Shown piece by piece: positions 2,519 through 63,275 of a stretch of 64,000 nucleotides of DNA. The number at the start of each line of letters is the position of its first letter. Positions within the stretch are counted from its first letter, which is position 1. The DNA is from a virus. Made by a program: the position numbers and the translations under genes. The notes beneath the pieces are model-generated. The model was not told the origin of the DNA and did not search any database. It saw only the letters and a list, made by a program, of their open reading frames with translations. The stretch covers positions 124,001-188,000 of the IMG/VR virus record IMGVR_UViG_3300049893_001984; one strand, given 5' to 3'.

Positions 2519-3136
2519 TTATTTGGAAGGTACAACCGGCTTAATGTCTGGCGAGAACTTGCCAAATACGTGTTTTTCTATGTACGCAGAGAATAACTTT
2601 TCGATATTTAATTCATCACTATCATTTATCCAGCTGTTCGCTTTCGCGCGCCTACGAAAATCACGGACAAATGGCGCGCAGTTTGTATTACATATCCATA
2701 GCCCCCGTTCATCCCTGGCCAGCTTGCATAATCTGCAATTCTCATTCCTGGCGTTTTGCATAAGAGTTTTCAGGTTCTCAGGATTATATTTATTCCTATT
2801 TTTCGTAAACTCTGGAAAGCACTCAAGATAAAAACCAATAGCTATCTTTTGCAACCTTGGGCTGAGGCCAACGCGAGAAAACATCTGGTTGGAGACCAGC
2901 GTTATATCTGTGTCAAACCCACGAAAGTCAAAGAATTCTCTGAAGGACATGAGTTCTTTAACCAGACGTATCGTCACTTCTAAGAATTGAACCCGTGCCT
3001 CTTCGAAAGCCGTTGACACGGATTCTTCTGTAACCACATTTATTTCTGGGACATGTGGTATTTGAATATCTTTTGTGGGTCTTGGGGTTACCATAGAAGA
3101 TTCTACGCTAACCATGCACGCTTCAGTGTACCTCAT
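2519..3136 (-). CDS. Hypothetical protein downstream of the E1-like gene
   Basis: Not recognised. 205 aa, with an N-terminal low-complexity stretch, a helical middle, and a possible zinc site CRLCKLARDERGLWICNTNC at about residues 134-153. The ATG overlaps the E1-like stop (ATGA) and the gene ends 5 bases before the terminator, so it is the last member of the ubiquitin-like operon. Translational coupling to the E1 suggests a role in the same pathway, such as a substrate or accessory factor; this rests on context only. Confidence 0.65.
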   Translation of the reverse strand: MRYTEACMVSVESSMVTPRPTKDIQIPHVPEINVVTEESVSTAFEEARVQFLEVTIRLVKELMSFREFFDFRGFDTDITLVSNQMFSRVGLSPRLQKIAIGFYLECFPEFTKNRNKYNPENLKTLMQNARNENCRLCKLARDERGLWICNTNCAPFVRDFRRRAKANSWINDSDELNIEKLFSAYIEKHVFGKFSPDIKPVVPSK

Positions 3137-3993
3137 TGGCTACTTTCCTTCTTCTTTGCCCGTTTCCTTGCTTTTCTTACTACGTGGGCGTGTTGAGGTA
3201 GCTTATCGGCGCTGCTGTCCGTAGCAGAACTTACATCGGGGATAGTAGGGATATGCAACGCAGAGACCGCTGTTTGATCCTCCGCGCCTTTAGGTTTATC
3301 AACGTCATACACAACGGCTTTTCCTACCTCGAGGTTAAAGAAAGCCTCCTGCGGTAGGTTTTCTTTGTCCTCCGTTACCCAAAGCCGGTGAAACAAGGAG
3401 AAGGCCATAGTAGCGGCCATGAGATTTGTTACCAGGAGCTGTGTAACACCCTGGTTTATCTCGTCCTCGCAGCCCTTTCCTGTGCGATCACCCTCAGTGG
3501 CCGTCAGTATCTCGGGATGGCGTTCGAGCACAGTCTGGGTCAAGTTTTTACCGTCAACCCGGATCTGAACACAAACGTCACCATCGATCAGCTCGTTGCC
3601 TGCTGAGATCATGATACCATTTTCAAGCTTGGACAAGGCCTGTGAAATGGTACGACGGGCCGGGTGGTTATCCACACAGGAGATAACCACGCAGTTCTCG
3701 GTGACGGCCCTTCGAACGCTGTCTTCAACCACCCACTCCGGGTAGGCGGTTATACGGAGGGAGGGATACTCCCCCGCCATATCGGTTACCAGGGCTTCGG
3801 CTTTGTTAACGCCAATGCTTGGAAACCGAAAGCGCTGACGGTTACGGTTTCCTTCTGTGTACACGTCCCGGTCCCACAGTGAGATCCGGCCTTGAAAGTC
3901 TTTGGCACACAGAAACTGGCAGAGCGGGGGGATGAGGTGTGACCCTATCCCCCCGCAGCCAACTATGACAACCTCGCTGACTTTAAACAGCAC
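3133..3993 (-). CDS. ThiF/E1-like ubiquitin-activating enzyme (PRTRC ThiF type)
   Basis: Predicted to adenylate the C-terminus of the neighbouring ubiquitin-like protein and pass it to a thiol. The Rossmann ATP site VGCGGIGS is at residues 11-18. It is followed by the acidic strand end WDRD (40-43), the NRNRQRF arginine motif (49-55, matching the ThiF NLxRQ signature), and CVDNHPARR (106-113). The segment KGCEDEINQGVTQLLVTN places a candidate catalytic cysteine at 175 in the same context as PRTRC ThiF proteins. The last 50 residues are a basic extension (KARKRAKKK) beyond the usual domain. The gene lies 32 bases after the JAMM gene and overlaps its downstream neighbour. Family assignment is strong; the substrate is inferred. 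Confidence 0.9.
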   Translation of the reverse strand: MLFKVSEVVIVGCGGIGSHLIPPLCQFLCAKDFQGRISLWDRDVYTEGNRNRQRFRFPSIGVNKAEALVTDMAGEYPSLRITAYPEWVVEDSVRRAVTENCVVISCVDNHPARRTISQALSKLENGIMISAGNELIDGDVCVQIRVDGKNLTQTVLERHPEILTATEGDRTGKGCEDEINQGVTQLLVTNLMAATMAFSLFHRLWVTEDKENLPQEAFFNLEVGKAVVYDVDKPKGAEDQTAVSALHIPTIPDVSSATDSSADKLPQHAHVVRKARKRAKKKESSQ

Positions 3994-4025
3994 AGTACTG
4001 CCCTCGCTGTGGTTTTGTAATGCGG

Positions 4026-5192
4026 CTACTGATACGCCTCAGTAGACCTGTAGTCGTAATTTGTTAAGTCATTCGGGTCCAACTCCTGGTGCATAGACCC
4101 GCCGTTTCCTCCTTGTTCAAAACTGCTCTGGGGATTTGTGGCTTCCAACTGGGTCGATGGTGCAGCCGTGGGTGGTATCGTAGACTCCACCTCAGCTTTT
4201 ACTGCTGGAAGTATAGCGGTGCTGCTTTTTGCTTCTTTGTCCGCCAAGTCTGTTGTGGTGGTGGTGGGGGTAGTGGCGGTGGGGGTTTCTGTCTTTTCTA
4301 CGTGCGGTGCCTTTGGATCTAAGTCTATGCGCGACAAATAGTAGTCGTCGTCATCGCTCACATAGTAGGGATGTGTGTTGGGGGTGGATCTGGTCACCCT
4401 TTTTTCTTTGTAATACGCACTGTCCGCCCATTTACTCGCATGTGCGCTGTATCCAGAGTAGCTCGAGTAGCCCGAGTAGCTCGTGGGTTCAATCGTATGC
4501 TTAGCTACAAGGGCGTCCCATTTTGGGTCATGAAGAGCTCCGTATGCTCCTTCAACAACACCGGGCAATTCTGCGTCAAAGAATTTGCCGCCAAGTTGCC
4601 ACCGACAGCTGTAGCTGTGATTCAACTTGTCCAGGTTGCCCACAGTGATGTGCAGCCCGTCAAATTGCTTCTCGTCGTTGTCGTCCGTTCCTGAGTGGAA
4701 CGCATTCATTGACGCATGACTGTGAATGGTCCCAAACCGGAACCAGCCGTCTGGCGGATCCGCCAAGGTCGATATGTCGTACTTTGCAGAGGCTGCAGAT
4801 ACTGTCTGGACCGGTACCTGCGCATCCCATTGCTTACTCGTGGGATTATAGATCAACACAACAACGGCCTCTGACTTGTGATCGATGTACACCTTCTCGA
4901 AGAAGGACTCGATCTGGCGAAATAACTGTAACGGAAGTTTTACCACCTTGATTTCCACTGATTCAGCCAAGGTGGCCATCCCCGGAAGGGTGTCAACTTT
5001 CACCCTGACAGTGTAGAAGTCGTTGCTTATCTGTTTGAAGATCCCGTTACTCCCAATCAGATAGCAAAACTTGTCCTCCGGGTAAGTAACCGCTTGTACT
5101 TCGTCCTTTTCAGTGGAAACCGGTGGGTTGCCCACCATAGTTACCACCTTTGAGACCTTCTTTTCTATCAGATGTATTGGAAGCCTTGGCAC
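4026..5192 (-). CDS. JAMM/JAB metalloprotease, PRTRC protein A-like
   Basis: Predicted zinc deubiquitinase-type isopeptidase that would mature or remove the phage ubiquitin-like protein. The complete JAMM+ motif is visible: a candidate Glu in KSEAVVV (~108), HSH at 157-159, Ser 167 and Asp 170 (spacing HxHx7SxxD). The surrounding AFHSGTDDNDE matches the PRTRC protein A pattern. After the domain comes a Tyr/Ser repeat (SYSGYSSYSGYS) and an acidic, Thr-rich tail of about 130 residues. GTG 5192 (AAAGGA upstream) is chosen; ATG 5138 with AAGGTGG is an equally plausible start. The longer frame to 5465 overlaps the upstream gene and is rejected. Confidence 0.88.
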   Translation of the reverse strand: MPRLPIHLIEKKVSKVVTMVGNPPVSTEKDEVQAVTYPEDKFCYLIGSNGIFKQISNDFYTVRVKVDTLPGMATLAESVEIKVVKLPLQLFRQIESFFEKVYIDHKSEAVVVLIYNPTSKQWDAQVPVQTVSAASAKYDISTLADPPDGWFRFGTIHSHASMNAFHSGTDDNDEKQFDGLHITVGNLDKLNHSYSCRWQLGGKFFDAELPGVVEGAYGALHDPKWDALVAKHTIEPTSYSGYSSYSGYSAHASKWADSAYYKEKRVTRSTPNTHPYYVSDDDDYYLSRIDLDPKAPHVEKTETPTATTPTTTTTDLADKEAKSSTAILPAVKAEVESTIPPTAAPSTQLEATNPQSSFEQGGNGGSMHQELDPNDLTNYDYRSTEAYQ

Positions 5193-5262
5193 AGGTCTAT
5201 TCCTTTCTTGTGCTAAGTGATTTTCGGTTAAACTCGCATTGTGCGAATTTAAATTGTTTGGA

Positions 5263-5793
5263 CTACTGCGGGTCTGCGCCGCTGACAGTGCCTGCAACTT
5301 CGGCTGTTGCTTCGGCTGTTGTTGCCGCTGTTTCTGTTGATGCTTGAACGGGTTCCGTGACAGACGGGGCAGATGCTGGGGTGATTGCTGGCAGCGTCTC
5401 AAGTTGTGCAAGTTTGAGTGCTTCAGCTTCAGTCTCCTGCCTTTCAAGTATCGCTCTCTGTTCATTCAATTCCCTCAGCAACTGGCTTCTTCTTGCAGAA
5501 GCCTGCCTTGCCTTCGTCTTGTCGTAGTGTTCTGTCCGTGACAAAATTCTTTGTAGCTGGGCATACGTTCCAGATTCGTCAATTTGTGACTCTTTTATGC
5601 AAAACCTCAACCTAATAGAATGTACTGCGTGTGCCACTAGGCTTTGCATTGGGGTGCCAACAAAGTTTTCCAAATCCTCGATTGGGCACACTAAAAAAGG
5701 ATGTAAAATATCCACGATGCTCAGTTTTTTCTGGGAAGGGATCGCGCTTAGTGAATTTTTGAGTTTTATAAATTCTTCTGACTCACGGGTCAT
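5263..5793 (-). CDS. Hypothetical protein inside the PRTRC-like cassette
   Basis: 176 aa, not recognised. ATG 5793 overlaps the stop of the E2-like gene (ATGA) and has GAGGAG 5-6 bases upstream. The N-terminal ~85 residues are mixed alpha/beta. Residues ~90-135 are a charged helix with coiled-coil character (RRSQLLRELNEQRAIL). The last 45 residues are an Ala/Thr/Glu-rich, probably disordered tail. Its place between E2-like and JAMM genes matches where bacterial PRTRC loci carry poorly conserved accessory proteins, but I see no motif that names it. Confidence 0.7.
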   Translation of the reverse strand: MTRESEEFIKLKNSLSAIPSQKKLSIVDILHPFLVCPIEDLENFVGTPMQSLVAHAVHSIRLRFCIKESQIDESGTYAQLQRILSRTEHYDKTKARQASARRSQLLRELNEQRAILERQETEAEALKLAQLETLPAITPASAPSVTEPVQASTETAATTAEATAEVAGTVSGADPQ

Positions 5794-6512
5794 GAATTCT
5801 CCTCTCTGCCTAGTATGGCGCTGCAAAGACCGTCTAAGGTCTTTAGCTTGTGTCTCTTAAGTGATAACTTCTTGTAAAACTCCTTGTCGTTCTGGGTCTT
5901 GGCGTTCCAATCCTCTAGATTTAAGATGGCGCCACCGCTGTCTTCTTCGTACCGGACCTCCAGGTCGTCATTCCACGTTGAATTATAGATGAGCTCCTGC
6001 GCCAACGTGTTAATGCGAACAACGCGGGGAAGTGAGGCGTCGACTCCTACCTCGCCAGTGCAAAAGTGCCCGTGCCCTTGCTCATGTACATTGGGCAAGC
6101 ACAACGTATGGATCTGTGCACCAGTTCCCAGCAGGCACACATCATCCTTTACGCCTACTGCGTACACACTGGAGGGTATTTCTTCGGAGAAGTGAAAGAG
6201 CCAAAGTGTCCATCCGATGGACAGTTTGTAGTTGTATGACTTGTTCCGGTCCAGGCCAGGACCGCCACGTTTGTAATGCATACGTACAGGTAGTATCTGC
6301 GGCGGTTTCTGAATTACGTACAGCGATGATGGTCTACCTCCGCGCAGACCCGTCATGTACCGAACACAGTCCTTTGGCAAAGGTCCAGTGTCCGTACCGC
6401 GACCCTCTTGTGTTTGCTTCAAGTACTCCGTCAGGTTCACGTCGTGCATTATCATACGACGTATCTGGAGTACATGGTCACCGCGTATTTCAATCACATC
6501 CTCTTCTTCCAT
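5790..6512 (-). CDS. E2-like protein, PRTRC protein B-like
   Basis: Predicted ubiquitin-conjugating (E2-like) component. At residues 140-151 the sequence reads PNVHEQGHGHFC, followed by TGEV. This mirrors the E2 active-site pattern (HPN, then G, then the catalytic Cys) and the corresponding block of PRTRC protein B. C151 is the candidate thioester cysteine. Upstream, RPSSLYVIQKPP and IPSSVYAVGV fit the strands that precede the block in that family. Length (240 aa) agrees with PRTRC B. The SD AAGGAGG is strong. It is the first gene after the terminator at 6531-6571, so its mRNA is separated from that of the ubiquitin-like gene. Family link by eye; thiol chemistry inferred. Confidence 0.8.
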   Translation of the reverse strand: MEEEDVIEIRGDHVLQIRRMIMHDVNLTEYLKQTQEGRGTDTGPLPKDCVRYMTGLRGGRPSSLYVIQKPPQILPVRMHYKRGGPGLDRNKSYNYKLSIGWTLWLFHFSEEIPSSVYAVGVKDDVCLLGTGAQIHTLCLPNVHEQGHGHFCTGEVGVDASLPRVVRINTLAQELIYNSTWNDDLEVRYEEDSGGAILNLEDWNAKTQNDKEFYKKLSLKRHKLKTLDGLCSAILGREENS

Positions 6513-6530
6513 TACTGCGCCTCCTTTTTA

Positions 6531-6571
6531 AAAGAAAAAGCCGAGGAGCGCGGCAGGTGCGCTCCTCGGCT
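6531..6571 (-). terminator. Terminator between ubiquitin-like and conjugation genes
   Basis: A 13-bp perfect stem AGCCGAGGAGCGC / GCGCTCCTCGGCT with a 7-base loop, followed on the minus strand by TTTTTCTTTT. It lies directly after the ubiquitin-like gene and should cap most transcripts there, leaving the enzymes downstream at lower level or on their own promoter. Confidence 0.85.
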
Positions 6572-6606
6572 GGTGTTTATGCTACGACAAACTGCTTACG
6601 TAACGG

Positions 6607-6831
6607 CTAGCAGCCCTTCTCGGACGCCATCTTCACGAACTCCAGGCGCTGACCGGCCTGGAGGCGGGTTTCGCCGCTGACGGGCATGCCGTCGATGCGG
6701 GCCTCGACGTTGCTCGGGAGGTTCAGAACATCCGTGTACTCATTCCGGATGTCGTTGACCGTGTGGCCAACGATGCTGTCGAGGGTCATCTGGTGCACAT
6801 TGAACTTCAGCATTGCGGTTTCGCCGTTCAT
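6607..6831 (-). CDS. Ubiquitin-like beta-grasp protein, PRTRC protein C-like
   Basis: 74 aa, the size of ubiquitin. The order is strand (AMLKFNVHQ), helix (HTVNDIRNEYTDVL), two strands (VEARIDGMPV) and a final strand QRLEFVKM, which fits a beta-grasp fold. The GTKG-like ending of PRTRC protein C is replaced by ASEKGC. There is no diglycine; a single Gly 73 is followed by Cys 74. Activation would need either removal of Cys by the JAMM protease or use of the terminal Cys itself. The SD is AAAGGAG. The gene is followed by its own terminator. Assignment rests on size, fold pattern and cassette context, not strong sequence identity. Confidence 0.75.
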   Translation of the reverse strand: MNGETAMLKFNVHQMTLDSIVGHTVNDIRNEYTDVLNLPSNVEARIDGMPVSGETRLQAGQRLEFVKMASEKGC

Positions 6832-6982
6832 CTTTCTTTTCTCCTTTGACGCTTGGCGTCAGGGTTGTGTTTTGGTGTGTGTTCGCAGCAGTGTATTCCA
6901 TAGCCACACCTTGTATGGATACCCTGCCAACTGCTGTGGGCGTGGCTGTGCCTGAAATCGCTCTTTCTAAGCACAGTATATG

Positions 6983-7345
6983 TCAATCAATGTCAAGCTC
7001 GGAGAATACTACCCGGTTAGTTGGCATTGATTTATAAACAAGCGGTTTCACAGCTTCGGCAGTAACTACTGGCGATGCTTGTTTCTCCGCCTTTATTAGG
7101 GGCAACTCGAAGTCAAACCCACGGGGAGGGGATAGGGGCTTCACGGTTCCACTGTCCCAATCCGAGAGGCGTGTTACCACGCACTTGAACCCTTTATTGC
7201 CTGCTTTGTGTTCTGATGTAAGGTACAGGTGGGCGGACCTCCACCCGAGCTCCAAGGTGACGGGGAGTGATATTACCTCCCAGTCACCTTTCTCTTCCTT
7301 ACCCAGAATAGCAAAGCGCTCCTTGCCCTCTGCTGTCTGTGCCAC
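6983..7345 (-). CDS. Hypothetical protein between ParB-like and Ub-like genes
   Basis: 120 aa, not recognised. GTG 7345 has AAGGAGAA upstream, overlapping the end of the ParB-like gene. The first ~70 residues look beta-rich (ITLELGWRS-type strands, FKCVVTRLSDWD), resembling a small ssDNA- or OB-type domain; the remainder is a flexible tail. Bacterial PRTRC loci have an unrelated-looking small protein E at this point, but I see no sequence match to it. Confidence 0.6.
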   Translation of the reverse strand: MAQTAEGKERFAILGKEEKGDWEVISLPVTLELGWRSAHLYLTSEHKAGNKGFKCVVTRLSDWDSGTVKPLSPPRGFDFELPLIKAEKQASPVVTAEAVKPLVYKSMPTNRVVFSELDID

Positions 7346-7350
7346 GTGCC

Positions 7351-8097
7351 TTATTCTCCTTCAAGTACGTTGAGGAGCTTTTCGGCTTTGTCACGGACGG
7401 TCCTGACTGTTGCGCGAAGATCTTTTACAACCAGCTTCAAGGTTTCGCGCTTAGCCTCATCGGGCATTTTGTTGACTTCACGCAAGGCTTCTACCACCTC
7501 GTCCAGCTTACGGGTAAGGCCGTCAGCCATAGAGGTTGTAGACCGGAAGACGACGGCAGGGGATATGCCCCCACGGTTGTCGACCTTGTGCCCACGCTTA
7601 ACAGCTTCAACTTTCGTCTTCTTATTCAACTGCTTTACTGTCTCCTGCATGTCTTGTCTTGAAATCTCACCATTGACAAGATTTGTCAGGAGTTCCTTTC
7701 GCTTGGTGTGATCCTGGATGGAAAGTGTGTAATTGAGATCTCGCCAGGAGACTTTCATCTCAATGTAAGGATCCAGGCTCTTCACATCTGGAAATGCCTT
7801 GTACAGACGGTGGAATGCTCGTACAGATTCCACGTCGTACCCAATGCTCTGCCCGAAGTACTCGGCTGTGCTCTTACCGTACTTGTCCGGACTATCCAAG
7901 AGTTCGGCCACAAACTCACCTTTCTCCCAGTGAGATGTGATAATGTCCTCGCGGATCTTCCTATCCTTCTTCGTGAAGTATTCAACCTTTTGGTTAAAAC
8001 GCTCAACCAGTTTCTTGTCCTTGATTTCAAGTTTCAAGGTGTGGTTGATTGTCTTAACAGGTGCTGCACTCTTGGCCTCAGCCAGTTGTGACGACAT
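7351..8097 (-). CDS. ParB-related helix-turn-helix protein
   Basis: 248 aa. The segment from ~residue 62 (STAEYFGQSIGYDVESVRAF) is followed by DLNYTLSIQDHTKRKELL and the terminal helix ISRQDMQETVKQL. This reproduces the order of the ParB/KorB DNA-binding domain, including the 'LSVRQTE'-like helix. The N-terminal CTPase/nuclease part of true ParB (GERR/GxxR box) is absent. The N-terminal helix HWEKGEFVAELL also resembles DUF3102/DUF1016-type proteins, the main alternative. The C-terminus is a basic coiled coil. ATG 8097 is chosen over 8103 because AGGAG needs the 6-base spacing. A ParB relative beside the E1/JAMM/Ub-like set is what defines PRTRC loci. Confidence 0.65.
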   Translation of the reverse strand: MSSQLAEAKSAAPVKTINHTLKLEIKDKKLVERFNQKVEYFTKKDRKIREDIITSHWEKGEFVAELLDSPDKYGKSTAEYFGQSIGYDVESVRAFHRLYKAFPDVKSLDPYIEMKVSWRDLNYTLSIQDHTKRKELLTNLVNGEISRQDMQETVKQLNKKTKVEAVKRGHKVDNRGGISPAVVFRSTTSMADGLTRKLDEVVEALREVNKMPDEAKRETLKLVVKDLRATVRTVRDKAEKLLNVLEGE

Positions 8098-8542
8098 GGC
8101 CATCTCCTAGTAAATCGTGTAAAAGCGGCGGTTTTATGGATGATTCGGATTCAGCTGCAGCGGTTCTAAACGACTTAGAAAGCGACTTCAGCATGATCCA
8201 TCTGTCGTAAAGGTTTAGGAGCCAGTGAGCCACCTCTAGCTGTTTCTCCGGAACCCCTACTAAATGCAGCTCAACTAGAGCTTTGTATTCTCTTTCGGAG
8301 AGCAGATCTTTTGGTACGTTTCGTATCTCGCGCAAGGCCATCTGACCGAGCACAACCCTCAGGTTTATTGCCAACCTGTGTGTTGGGTTGTATGTAGCGA
8401 GATTGAAGAAAACATTCGTAGTGCTCTTCGAAACTTTTAATTCATTAAGTTTGTTGAAAAGCTCTCCAAGCTGCCTTCTGTCGCCAGGCGCCGAAGCTTT
8501 TACCCTTTTTAGTGATGCTGGTTCTACGGGTTCCATATGCAA
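8078..8542 (-). CDS. Hypothetical protein, 154 aa
   Basis: Not recognised. Mostly helical and basic in its first half (LKRVKASAPGDRRQLGELF), soluble, no cysteines. GGAAGGG lies 5 bases before TTG 8542 and 11 bases before ATG 8536; I keep the TTG but the ATG is nearly as likely. It overlaps the upstream gene's end by 19 bases and the ParB-like start by 20, so it belongs to the same operon. Confidence 0.6.
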   Translation of the reverse strand: MHMEPVEPASLKRVKASAPGDRRQLGELFNKLNELKVSKSTTNVFFNLATYNPTHRLAINLRVVLGQMALREIRNVPKDLLSEREYKALVELHLVGVPEKQLEVAHWLLNLYDRWIMLKSLSKSFRTAAAESESSIKPPLLHDLLGDGHVVTTG

Positions 8543-61039: not shown

Positions 61040-61393
61040 TCAAGGTACTATCTCGCCGACGACCTTCCCAGGTGCTGTGTAACATTTTGCCAGTTCCCTA
61101 TCAACTTGTATGGAAAGCCAACTATGCAGAGCTGCCCAGTTCTTATGAATTTCATTAACTTCAGTGTAGTTATGCTTTGTCATATCCTTCTCAGCAAACA
61201 TACCATACTCATAGACCTGCCTATTCCACCATAGAGTACAGCGCGCAACGCACCCAATCTGCTGGTGTTTTGACATTGTAGAATAAGCTACTTTAAAGTT
61301 GTTTTCCCCACAAACAAACCAGGCATCCTCTTCGTCTTGACTACACCACAACTCCCCTATAGGCAGCACACACCCAACTGGAAGCTTGTTCAT
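61040..61393 (-). CDS. 'GCVLPxGxxWC' family protein ending in GEIVP
   Basis: 117 aa. PVGCVLPIGELWCSQDEEDAWFVCG and QIGCVARCTLWWNR align with 60613. Ends VGEIVP. The two genes are tandem copies and both keep the terminal IVP. Function unknown. Confidence 0.63.
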   Translation of the reverse strand: MNKLPVGCVLPIGELWCSQDEEDAWFVCGENNFKVAYSTMSKHQQIGCVARCTLWWNRQVYEYGMFAEKDMTKHNYTEVNEIHKNWAALHSWLSIQVDRELAKCYTAPGKVVGEIVP

Positions 61394-61626
61394 TCTTTTC
61401 GCCTCTCTTTCACAGACTCTTTTTCGGGATTATCCGAGTTCCAGACAAATGTGCTGTTGCCGTACTCGTCTGCAACATACCGGCCAGCTTTGTGCTCGCA
61501 GGCCTCCCTTCTGATCGATCGTCTTCCGTCGCTATTACCTGCCACATAGGAAAGAATTATGAACAGGCCTGATACCACAGCAACAAGTATAAAGAGTGTC
61601 ATGTCGTCCTTGTCACTTTCCCGCAT
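61390..61626 (-). CDS. Small membrane protein, 'RREAC' family, 78 aa
   Basis: ATG 61626 (MRESDKDDM) with GGAGG; the longer frame is rejected. Membrane helix TLFILVAVVSGLFIILSYVAG, then DGRRSIRREACEHKAGRYV, paralogous to 60355. The stop overlaps the next start (ATGA). Confidence 0.6.
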   Translation of the reverse strand: MRESDKDDMTLFILVAVVSGLFIILSYVAGNSDGRRSIRREACEHKAGRYVADEYGNSTFVWNSDNPEKESVKERRKE

Positions 61627-61897
61627 TGCTATCCTCCGACAAGTAATTGTTGCAGGTGCCTTGCGCTGAGACCATGCGCGGCTTAGCCCAGTCATCCCAG
61701 GCTTTCTCAATTGCATTTACCTCTTCGTCAGGGGTGTCCATCCGGATGAAGAAACCTTCACCCATCAACACCGATCCTGACTTCGGTCTTGGCGGTGCGT
61801 TGAAACCGCAGAACAGCACGGTCTCACAATCGTACTCAGCTATACGTACGCAATGCTTACAGTTATGGCACCCGTCCTGCATCTTGTATCCGTCCAT
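61613..61897 (-). CDS. 'YKMQDGCxNC' family protein, 94 aa
   Basis: MDGYKMQDGCHNCKHC plus FCGFNAPPRP and GTCNNY: third member of the zinc-motif family with 52916 and 53618. SD AAGGAG. Function unknown. Confidence 0.62.
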   Translation of the reverse strand: MDGYKMQDGCHNCKHCVRIAEYDCETVLFCGFNAPPRPKSGSVLMGEGFFIRMDTPDEEVNAIEKAWDDWAKPRMVSAQGTCNNYLSEDSNAGK

Positions 61898-61903
61898 CGC
61901 AGT

Positions 61904-62266
61904 TTACTCCTTCTCAGGGAAGTCAAACTTCAAGCCGTTGTCCTCTGCATATTTCCACAAACAATCTCTCCACTCCGAGACCATCCCTCTGTCGTGTATA
62001 TTCTGTAAGCCAGCCAGAAAATCCCAGTCTTCTTCCGTGACTACGTCCAAGGCTTTTGAAAGGGGAGAATTAGTGATCAGCAGGTCAGTTATACCCCAGC
62101 CTTCCATTTCCTCCTTGTATAGCTCATCAGGGATCAAACATCCGATCGCGCAGCGCCTACCTGTGTCAGGATCCCGGTAGGCACACCTATTATCAACTCC
62201 AATGCACCTTACATTCTGGGTGAGTAGGTGCTCTGCGACTTTGTTAAAGACAGCCTGCTTGTCCAT
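61904..62266 (-). CDS. 'DKQAVF' family protein, 120 aa, paralogue of 62832
   Basis: MDKQAVFNKVAEHLLTQ ... CAYRDPDTGRRCAIGCLIPDELY matches the 62832 protein (DKQAVFTTVANHLLKQ, CVYRGDDGLKCAIGVLIPDELY). Both carry later helical blocks that diverge. A known style of phage hypothetical protein; no function can be read from the sequence. Confidence 0.62.
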   Translation of the reverse strand: MDKQAVFNKVAEHLLTQNVRCIGVDNRCAYRDPDTGRRCAIGCLIPDELYKEEMEGWGITDLLITNSPLSKALDVVTEEDWDFLAGLQNIHDRGMVSEWRDCLWKYAEDNGLKFDFPEKE

Positions 62267-62270
62267 TCTT

Positions 62271-62300
62271 GTAAGTCCTTATGCCTACAAGGCGTTATGT
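62271..62300 (-). promoter_or_regulatory. RBS-hairpin element, copy 1
   Basis: Minus-strand ATAACGCCTTGTAGGCATAAGGACTTAC: a GCC-TTGTA-GGC mini-hairpin immediately before the SD of the 120-residue gene. Related copies lie at 63451 and 63845. Confidence 0.5.
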
Positions 62301-62303
62301 GAT

Positions 62304-62498
62304 TCAACCATCATAAACGCCCAATTGACGCCAGCCACGTCGGCCGCGCACCATGTGGCATTTCTCCGTAATGTGATCCGGATGACGCTCACCACATTCC
62401 GGACAAACGTCTATGTCTTTCCATTTTTCACCAGGAACCGTGTTACCTATGCACTTGGGCGATGACCGTAGTACAAAATCCTCAAACGGCTGGTGCAT
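62304..62498 (-). CDS. Zinc-motif protein, 64 aa
   Basis: Not recognised. CPECGERHPDHITEKCH is a likely single zinc site; basic end (RGRRGWRQLG). It overlaps the next gene by 17 bases. SD is a weak GGGAAAA. Confidence 0.52.
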   Translation of the reverse strand: MHQPFEDFVLRSSPKCIGNTVPGEKWKDIDVCPECGERHPDHITEKCHMVRGRRGWRQLGVYDG

Positions 62499-62832
62499 AG
62501 TGTTTTCCCTTGCCCTTTAAACCTTTGCCGGTTTTCAGCCTACGCCAGATGCGTAGCTCTTCTCTTACAAAAGCCAGAGTCTTACGCCGTAATAAGGAAC
62601 GTGAGTGCAGTCGACCTGAGTCGTCGTACATAAACAAAATACAGTCGCTTGTACCGCATCCATCCTTCAGCGGACCTGTTTGTACAAGGAAACAAGACAG
62701 CTGATGCGCCAGTGTCTCCTTTGCTAAAATACGGGCAGTTTCATTTTCTATGTCCTCTGCCCACTCGTAGCCGTACTCAATTAGAGTCAGGACTTTTTCC
62801 AACTCCCGTTTGAACCTATCACCGATAGGCAT
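62482..62832 (-). CDS. Hypothetical protein, 116 aa
   Basis: Not recognised. ATG 62832 (MPIGDRFKREL) overlaps the upstream stop (TAATG) with GAGGAGG. Helical N-terminus and basic C-terminus (REELRIWRRLKTGKGLKGKGK). Cytosolic. Confidence 0.58.
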   Translation of the reverse strand: MPIGDRFKRELEKVLTLIEYGYEWAEDIENETARILAKETLAHQLSCFLVQTGPLKDGCGTSDCILFMYDDSGRLHSRSLLRRKTLAFVREELRIWRRLKTGKGLKGKGKHYAPAV

Positions 62833-63212
62833 TATTGAACCTCCTCTGCCCACTGTGCCGGGAAAACCAGCTTGTGCCTGTCGGCCAACAACTTCAACTC
62901 GTACACCCAGGTTACAGGGTCTTTCTCGTCATGAAGCTGTTGAAGCTCCATCAGGAAATTCGTGTCATCGAAAAAATTCTTTATCTCCAGATGGGCATAC
63001 AGCTTCGGGTTAGTCTGTATTAAAACAGTGGCCTGCTTGCCTTCCATGCTCGGGGTGTACAACTCGTCTGGGATCAAAACTCCAATTGCACACTTCAACC
63101 CATCATCGCCCCTGTAAACACAGCTGGCGATGAACGCCTCTTCAGTGACACTTCGCTTGCCTTGCTTCAACAGGTGATTTGCCACTGTTGTAAACACAGC
63201 TTGTTTATCCAC
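62832..63212 (-). CDS. 'DKQAVF' family protein, 126 aa, paralogue of 61904
   Basis: GTG 63212 with AAGGGG 7 bases upstream is chosen; the longer frame is untranslated leader. DKQAVFTTVANHLLKQG and CAIGVLIPDELYTPSMEG are the shared blocks. Function unknown. Confidence 0.62.
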   Translation of the reverse strand: MDKQAVFTTVANHLLKQGKRSVTEEAFIASCVYRGDDGLKCAIGVLIPDELYTPSMEGKQATVLIQTNPKLYAHLEIKNFFDDTNFLMELQQLHDEKDPVTWVYELKLLADRHKLVFPAQWAEEVQ

Positions 63213-63250
63213 GTAGTTACCCCTTGCATTTAGTAACGTGAACGTTAAAC

Positions 63251-63275
63251 TTGGCGAAGTTCCCACCTTCGCCAA
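63251..63275 (-). terminator. Rho-independent terminator
   Basis: A perfect 9-bp stem TTGGCGAAG / CTTCGCCAA with a 7-base loop, followed on the minus strand by GTTTAACG. It ends the 55-residue gene's transcript. Confidence 0.65.

Follow-up and report, generated by a model that had tools for sequence, protein, structure and literature searches.

Does a tailed phage encode complete machinery of its own for attaching a ubiquitin-like (Ubl) modifier to proteins? The question is raised by a gene cassette in a 64,000-base stretch of viral DNA, hereafter the window, which corresponds to bases 124001-188000 of the 192,334-base IMG/VR record IMGVR_UViG_3300049893_001984. An E1, an E2-like protein, a Ubl modifier and a JAMM deconjugase are all present by sequence, and the Gly of the modifier would be free once a single following Cys is removed. 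The cassette is probably a complete, reversible ubiquitin-like protein-conjugation system of a large tailed phage. Gene content, catalytic residues, the Lys-Gly end with its extensions, gene order and co-inheritance are read from the sequence, and the Ubl fold from a structural model. The core features are the following.

6607-6831, minus strand: Ubl modifier of 74 residues (C74) ending in SEKGC, assigned by predicted fold, family profile and KG end
6539-6571, minus strand: intrinsic terminator directly 3' of the Ubl gene, with a 13-base-pair stem and a TTTTCTTTTA tail
5790-6512, minus strand: E2-like conjugating enzyme of 240 residues, PN-x9-C-x-G, with candidate catalytic Asn141 and Cys151
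4026-5138, minus strand: JAMM/MPN+ metalloprotease, PRTRC_A-like, 370 residues, E...HSHx7SxxD and a long Ser/Thr/Pro-rich tail
3133-3993, minus strand: E1-like activating enzyme of the ThiF family, 286 residues, with candidate catalytic Cys175

The E1, JAMM and E2-like enzymes

Direct library matches were good for the E1 and JAMM alone, and relatives were therefore collected to build leave-one-out profiles from which the window was excluded. They were gathered from plasmid PRTRC loci, phage records and 73 IMG/VR contigs found with a JAMM alignment. In a profile search of the window proteins, the E1 matches Pfam ThiF at 2.1e-20, and its top NCBIfam match is PRTRC_ThiF (TIGR03736; 6.4e-21, 74.8 bits, below the cut-off of 144.75). 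The leave-one-out profile recovers it at 1.8e-54. The protein carries GxGxxG, D41, N49, R52, Q53, K64, D108 and C175; ATP-site positions are kept in 68-70 of 70 relatives, and Cys175 in all 68 aligned sequences. The ThiF/E1 with a candidate catalytic Cys that had been proposed at 3133 is thus borne out by matching ThiF profiles and a conserved C175.

The JAMM gene most likely starts at 5138 (370 residues), at an ATG preceded by an AGGTGG ribosome site. Its active-site residues are E115, H164, H166, S174 and D177 in the numbering of a 395-residue frame. The catalytic E, HxH, S and D are identical in 67 of 67 relatives, with HSH, as opposed to E, S and D, having belonged to the JAMM search pattern. 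The sole NCBIfam family match is PRTRC_A (TIGR03735; 7e-14, 51.8 bits, below the cut-off of 101.8), and the leave-one-out profile gives 6.6e-61. A JAMM protease with HxHx7SxxD had been predicted here, in agreement with the family profile and with the presence of every catalytic residue. In Acinetobacter phage ME3 (locus L090, 7992-11102), the JAMM gene seems to be split at the first His of HSH, its parts being separated by a tRNA and small CxxC-containing genes, possibly homing endonuclease-like. Perhaps an intron lies in the active site of this gene.

The E2-like protein is recovered by its leave-one-out profile at 1e-17, and Asn141 and Cys151 are invariant in all 67 aligned sequences. In an alignment of 51 E2 sequences, Prok-E2_D is matched by 44 and PRTRC_B by 31. 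The relatives share the motif PF[PS]N-x7-C-x-G, and the PN-x9-C-x-G of the window protein is two residues longer. The P-x-x-N-x7-C spacing of the relatives is that of the eukaryotic E2 motif, HPN-x7-C.

The Ubl modifier and its expression

The AlphaFold model of C74, with a predicted local distance difference test (pLDDT) score of 85.7, shows a beta-grasp fold. Foldseek matched it to ubiquitin, SUMO and SAMP with a probability of 1.00, a template modelling (TM) score of ~0.6-0.7 and an E value of ~1e-3, as expected for the 74-residue beta-grasp protein postulated at 6607. A profile of PRTRC_C-type Ubls fails to recover C74 (0.22), and the profile of its own family gives 3.3e-9. This second Ubl family, apart from the PRTRC_C type, forms the C-terminus of proteins of 160-340 residues in a set of phage loci, L013-L033. 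Together with the three leave-one-out profiles given above, the Ubl family value excludes chance.

Nearly every Ubl domain in both families ends in Lys-Gly, and KG is invariant in 19 sequences. Lys-Gly is the true end of many Ubls. In others it is extended by 1-12 residues or joined in tandem to a further Ubl domain, the copy number ranging from 1 to 6. The Ubl of Vibrio phage D69 is triple and that of Bacillus phage KLEB27-3 is quadruple. The one-residue extension KGC is found in the window, L021, L023 and L031, and GTKGC in L038. Human UBB also ends with an extra Cys after its last Gly. The candidate Ubl of ME3 (L090, 12813-13004) is an exception, ending in NKAA and not in KG. The occurrence of Lys-Gly ends alone, extended or in arrays thus implies a protease and C-terminal chemistry. 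The Ubl frame of Salmonella phage Arash (L003, 50-304, ending in GTKG) differs from the annotated gp251, which looks mis-called.

Such chemistry could also be that of a sulfur carrier. The E1 would then thiolate a ThiS/MoaD/CysO-like Ubl that serves cysteine, cofactor or tRNA thiolation, and the JAMM would free the product, much as Mec+ releases product from CysO-Cys. C74 relatives do match ThiS and TGS models, single-Gly ends exist, and ThiF and MoeB are, along with SUMO E1, among the nearest solved relatives of the E1. However, nearly all clusters also encode an E2-like protein in which Asn and Cys are invariant, a carrier would have little use for tandem poly-Ubl arrays, and no rhodanese or PALP/CysM-type (cysteine-synthase) gene was found in the 192-kilobase record, which may be a fragment. 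These three points make a sulfur carrier improbable.

The window Ubl gene is followed directly by a strong hairpin and a T-run. Among the relatives, a terminator lies within ~180 bases downstream of 24 of 58 Ubl genes versus 3 of 67 E2 genes (Fisher p 4e-7, calculated on related loci that are not independent). The GC content at third codon positions (GC3) of the window Ubl gene is 0.88, compared to a mean of 0.51 and to 0.70 in the capsid gene, and 1911 stretches of equal length from other open reading frames all lie below this value. Across relatives the GC3 shift of Ubl genes is small (mean +0.035), and the terminator alone therefore generalises. We infer that the Ubl gene is highly expressed. 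Its own terminator and its GC3 bias together suggest that the modifier would be produced in excess of its enzymes.

A conjugation cycle can be proposed in which we infer all catalytic steps, and the existence of targets, from the features described above. A short transcript of its own would supply the 74-residue Ubl in surplus. Removal of the extra C-terminal Cys by the JAMM would expose the Lys-Gly end; the JAMM of relatives would cleave poly-Ubl chains and tails of other kinds. The E1 would adenylate the C-terminal Gly of the Ubl with ATP, and may load the Ubl on Cys175. The Ubl would be passed to Cys151 of the E2-like protein and attached to target amino groups in the infected cell, from which the JAMM could also remove it.

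Distribution of the cassette and its relation to PRTRC

The 73 IMG/VR contigs that carry the cassette are mostly from large phages; some isolate-genome contigs may be plasmids. Single-sequence IMG/VR scans with the window E1 and E2 gave no matches, whereas the JAMM alignment succeeded. The window JAMM is matched by 6 of 50,697 phage records (tblastn), and ME3 was added by fold and profile. Cultured phages with the cassette are Salmonella Arash, Vibrio D69, D181 and D148, Bacillus KLEB27-3 and Acinetobacter ME3. GenBank labels single cassette genes, with PRTRC_A annotated in ME3 and KLEB27-3. Two other candidates were rejected. Virus Rctr197k has a ThiF with no JAMM or E2 beside it, and a MoeB match in 'Acinetobacter phage MD-2021a' (CAKLQH020000004.1) lies on a bacterial chromosome contig (kdpABC, hemK, prfA) deposited as phage.

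The order E2, JAMM, E1 is repeated in most loci, with the Ubl gene usually upstream of E2; in L013-L033 it is placed after E1 instead. Trees group the window with L013-L033, with support of 0.999 for E1, 1.0 for JAMM and 0.88 for E2, and the nearest Ubl relatives of C74 come from the same loci. The cassette therefore travels as a unit. The E2 protein of L013-L033 has ~860 residues and includes a large C-terminal region of unknown nature; these loci also have a second ThiF gene downstream and an adjoining RNA polymerase beta' gene.

The source phage is tailed: its terminase is closest to those of Arash (29%) and D69, and the Arash major capsid protein has a 37% match elsewhere in the 192-kilobase record, in the same phage. 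Like the other cultured phages named above, Arash and D69 have E2, JAMM and E1 in one locus, whereas the window cassette groups with the L013-L033 phage set. The 192,334-base record, which may be a fragment, yielded no match to the tyrosine integrase model PF00589, and a lytic lifestyle is plausible. The source phage has an RNA polymerase of its own. One 1986-residue open frame of the record (G000, positions 61389-63251, beyond the window) bears beta as well as beta' signatures, which points to a fused beta-beta' enzyme of the phage. An RNA polymerase beta subunit is found in 25 of 48 records; its presence follows phage lineage, and we infer no association with the cassette from it.

The nearest named family is PRTRC, or type 6d, of which the window cassette is a divergent branch. 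Type 6d operons were described by Iyer et al. 2006, for example on pMOL28 of Cupriavidus metallidurans (PMC1779556); we equated them with PRTRC from gene content and species list. Both comprise a Ubl with a Lys-Gly end, an E2-like protein (Prok-E2_D), a JAMM and a ThiF/E1, and the pMOL28 order C ... B, A, ThiF partly matches that of the window. The link is reinforced through relatives, by the E2s that match PRTRC_B and by the poly-Ubls of KLEB27-3 and L062, which pass the PRTRC_C (TIGR03738) cut-off. The window cassette differs in several respects. The top NCBIfam matches of its E1 and JAMM score below the curated cut-offs, and the PRTRC_B, PRTRC_C and PRTRC ParB models have no match among window proteins. 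PRTRC E and F have no match in the window either, and the Ubl and E2 genes are adjacent with no F between them. Type 6d is defined in part by an absolutely conserved His that follows the Cys of the E2 (PMC1779556), and the window protein lacks it: the window has W-N-D-D, phages mostly F-N-x-D, and some plasmid forms F-T-H. Finally, the window Ubl belongs to a separate sequence family, has a KGC end, its own terminator and codon bias, and is phage-borne.

The original prediction of a PRTRC cassette thus stands for a phage-borne Ubl-E2-JAMM-E1 cassette of the nearest kind, and falls for strict membership. The predicted gene order is retained in its C...B-A-ThiF part and lost in its ParB part, and of the models named for searching, those for A and ThiF match below cut-off and those for B and C do not. 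Judged strictly, the window copy falls short of full PRTRC membership, yet it would work like a member. Its divergence from the PRTRC models and the absence of ParB, E and F would also fit an inert remnant acquired from a plasmid. This is very unlikely, as the catalytic positions are all retained, genes are coupled by ATGA and the codon bias of the Ubl gene is extreme.

The genes around the core, and the hairpin that closes it, are the following.

7351-8103, minus strand: 250-residue protein, previously called 'ParB'; weak DUF1016_N
6983-7345, minus strand: unknown protein of 120 residues, upstream of the Ubl gene; no relative found
5263-5793, minus strand: unknown protein of 176 residues, its ATG overlapping the E2 stop (ATGA); no relative found
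2519-3136, minus strand: unknown protein of 205 residues, ATGA overlap with the E1 gene, CxxC...CxxxC zinc-finger-like pattern; no relative found
2483-2515, listed on the plus strand: 15-pair near-symmetrical hairpin closing the block from the E2 gene to the 205-residue gene

Transcription on the minus strand runs from the genes of the 250-residue (8103) and 120-residue (7345) proteins through the Ubl gene (6831) and terminator (6571-6539) to the E2-like (6512), 176-residue (5793), JAMM (5138), E1 (3993) and 205-residue (3136) genes. The protein at 8103-7351 had been taken for a ParB-type helix-turn-helix protein; it has no ParB match, DUF1016_N (0.0011) being its single weak hit. The genes at 2519, 5263 and 6983, formerly described as fixed in the cluster, have no detectable relative at any locus examined and are therefore not fixed in the cassette. 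The 205-residue protein, whose gene is coupled to that of the E1, may be a partner protein of the zinc-finger type.

Alternative roles and possible targets

In the defence systems Bil (BilABCD) and type II CBASS Cap2/Cap3, a Ubl or the C-terminus of cGAS is activated by an E1, moved by an E2 and cut by a JAMM. The window cassette would resemble them in this manner of working; theirs, however, serves host defence, often with fused E1-E2 and with another Ubl. A counter-defence role, in which the Ubl, E2 or JAMM would jam or reverse such host immunity or tag defence proteins, must be considered. Bacterial Bil reportedly tags phage tails (a finding ascribed to Hor et al. 2024), the JAMM could reverse such tags, and the cassette is carried by phages and plasmids, both of which are immunity targets. 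Reversing tags, however, needs no complete Ubl and E1 of one's own. The window E1 shows general similarity alone to PADLOC E1-E2 models, and the co-inheritance of the cassette over large distances is unlike that of fast-changing anti-defence genes. We regard counter-defence as doubtful.

An unlikely alternative of similar weight is virion maturation, the Ubl being joined to structural proteins during assembly, as once proposed for TAPI and TAPK of lambda. These tail proteins of lambda and T1, a Ubl and a JAB + NlpC/P60 protein, respectively (PMC1779556), share a phage-encoded Ubl and JAMM with the cassette and differ in having no E1 or E2. The Arash-type cassette sits between terminase and structural genes, and its E1, JAMM and E2 were detected by mass spectrometry in purified Arash particles, with 5, 3 and 2 unique peptides for gp246, gp247 and gp248 (PMC10585845). 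This shows expression during infection, and the three proteins are perhaps virion-associated. Against maturation, the Arash preparation contains many enzymes, relatives are found on plasmids without virions, and the window cassette adjoins recombination and replication genes, ~26 kb from the terminase.

Several observations weigh against a complete conjugation system. The E2-like assignment at 5790, upheld by the family profile and by conservation of Asn141 and Cys151, finds no support in the window sequence by itself, which matches no E2 profile (NCBIfam, Pfam). Compared with the PDB, the model of this protein (pLDDT 81) gave no significant match; the E2s 2c2v and 5tte appeared only at E ~0.6. 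The Ubl tail is a single Gly after Lys, not Gly-Gly. The Arash particles that yielded the peptides come with many non-virion enzymes (PMC10585845). Neither an E3 nor a fixed target gene was found. Finally, the surroundings differ between lineages, with structural genes and terminase in the Arash lineage, RNA polymerase beta' in L013-L033, replication and recombination genes in the window and replication genes on plasmids, and the context therefore indicates no single target. Several cassettes of plasmids and gut phages (L007-L010, L004) have as neighbours genes of the DNA polymerase III sliding clamp or clamp loader (dnaN, dnaX, holA).

Host RNA polymerase, defence proteins and virions had been put forward originally as possible targets. 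If the cassette conjugates its Ubl, we lean towards phage-made proteins over host proteins as its main targets. Virion proteins or the replication and transcription machinery have close to an even chance of filling this role; host proteins are a possible, less favoured choice. On balance we favour the broader view that large tailed phages of several unrelated hosts keep an ancient, self-sufficient polyubiquitin-like tagging system acting in infected cells, a complete virus-encoded cascade in prokaryotes.

No resolution of the biochemistry of type 6d/PRTRC operons since 2006 was found in the literature searched, nor was a phage-borne cassette described there (subscription journals and preprints lay outside the search, and PRTRC papers were judged by title). 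A jumbo-phage survey published in 2021 by the group behind the type 6d definition does not mention ThiF, JAB or PRTRC. The phage branch, the poly-Ubl arrays and the insulated, biased Ubl gene appear to be undescribed in this literature. The phage version is present in cultured phages (Arash, D69, KLEB27-3) and is thus directly testable. If the proposal is true, phages would have ubiquitin-like signalling of their own, complete with genes that resemble those for polyubiquitin and an extension by one residue as in human UBB. Bacteriophages may thus label proteins during infection, using tag genes some of which are repeated like human polyubiquitin genes.

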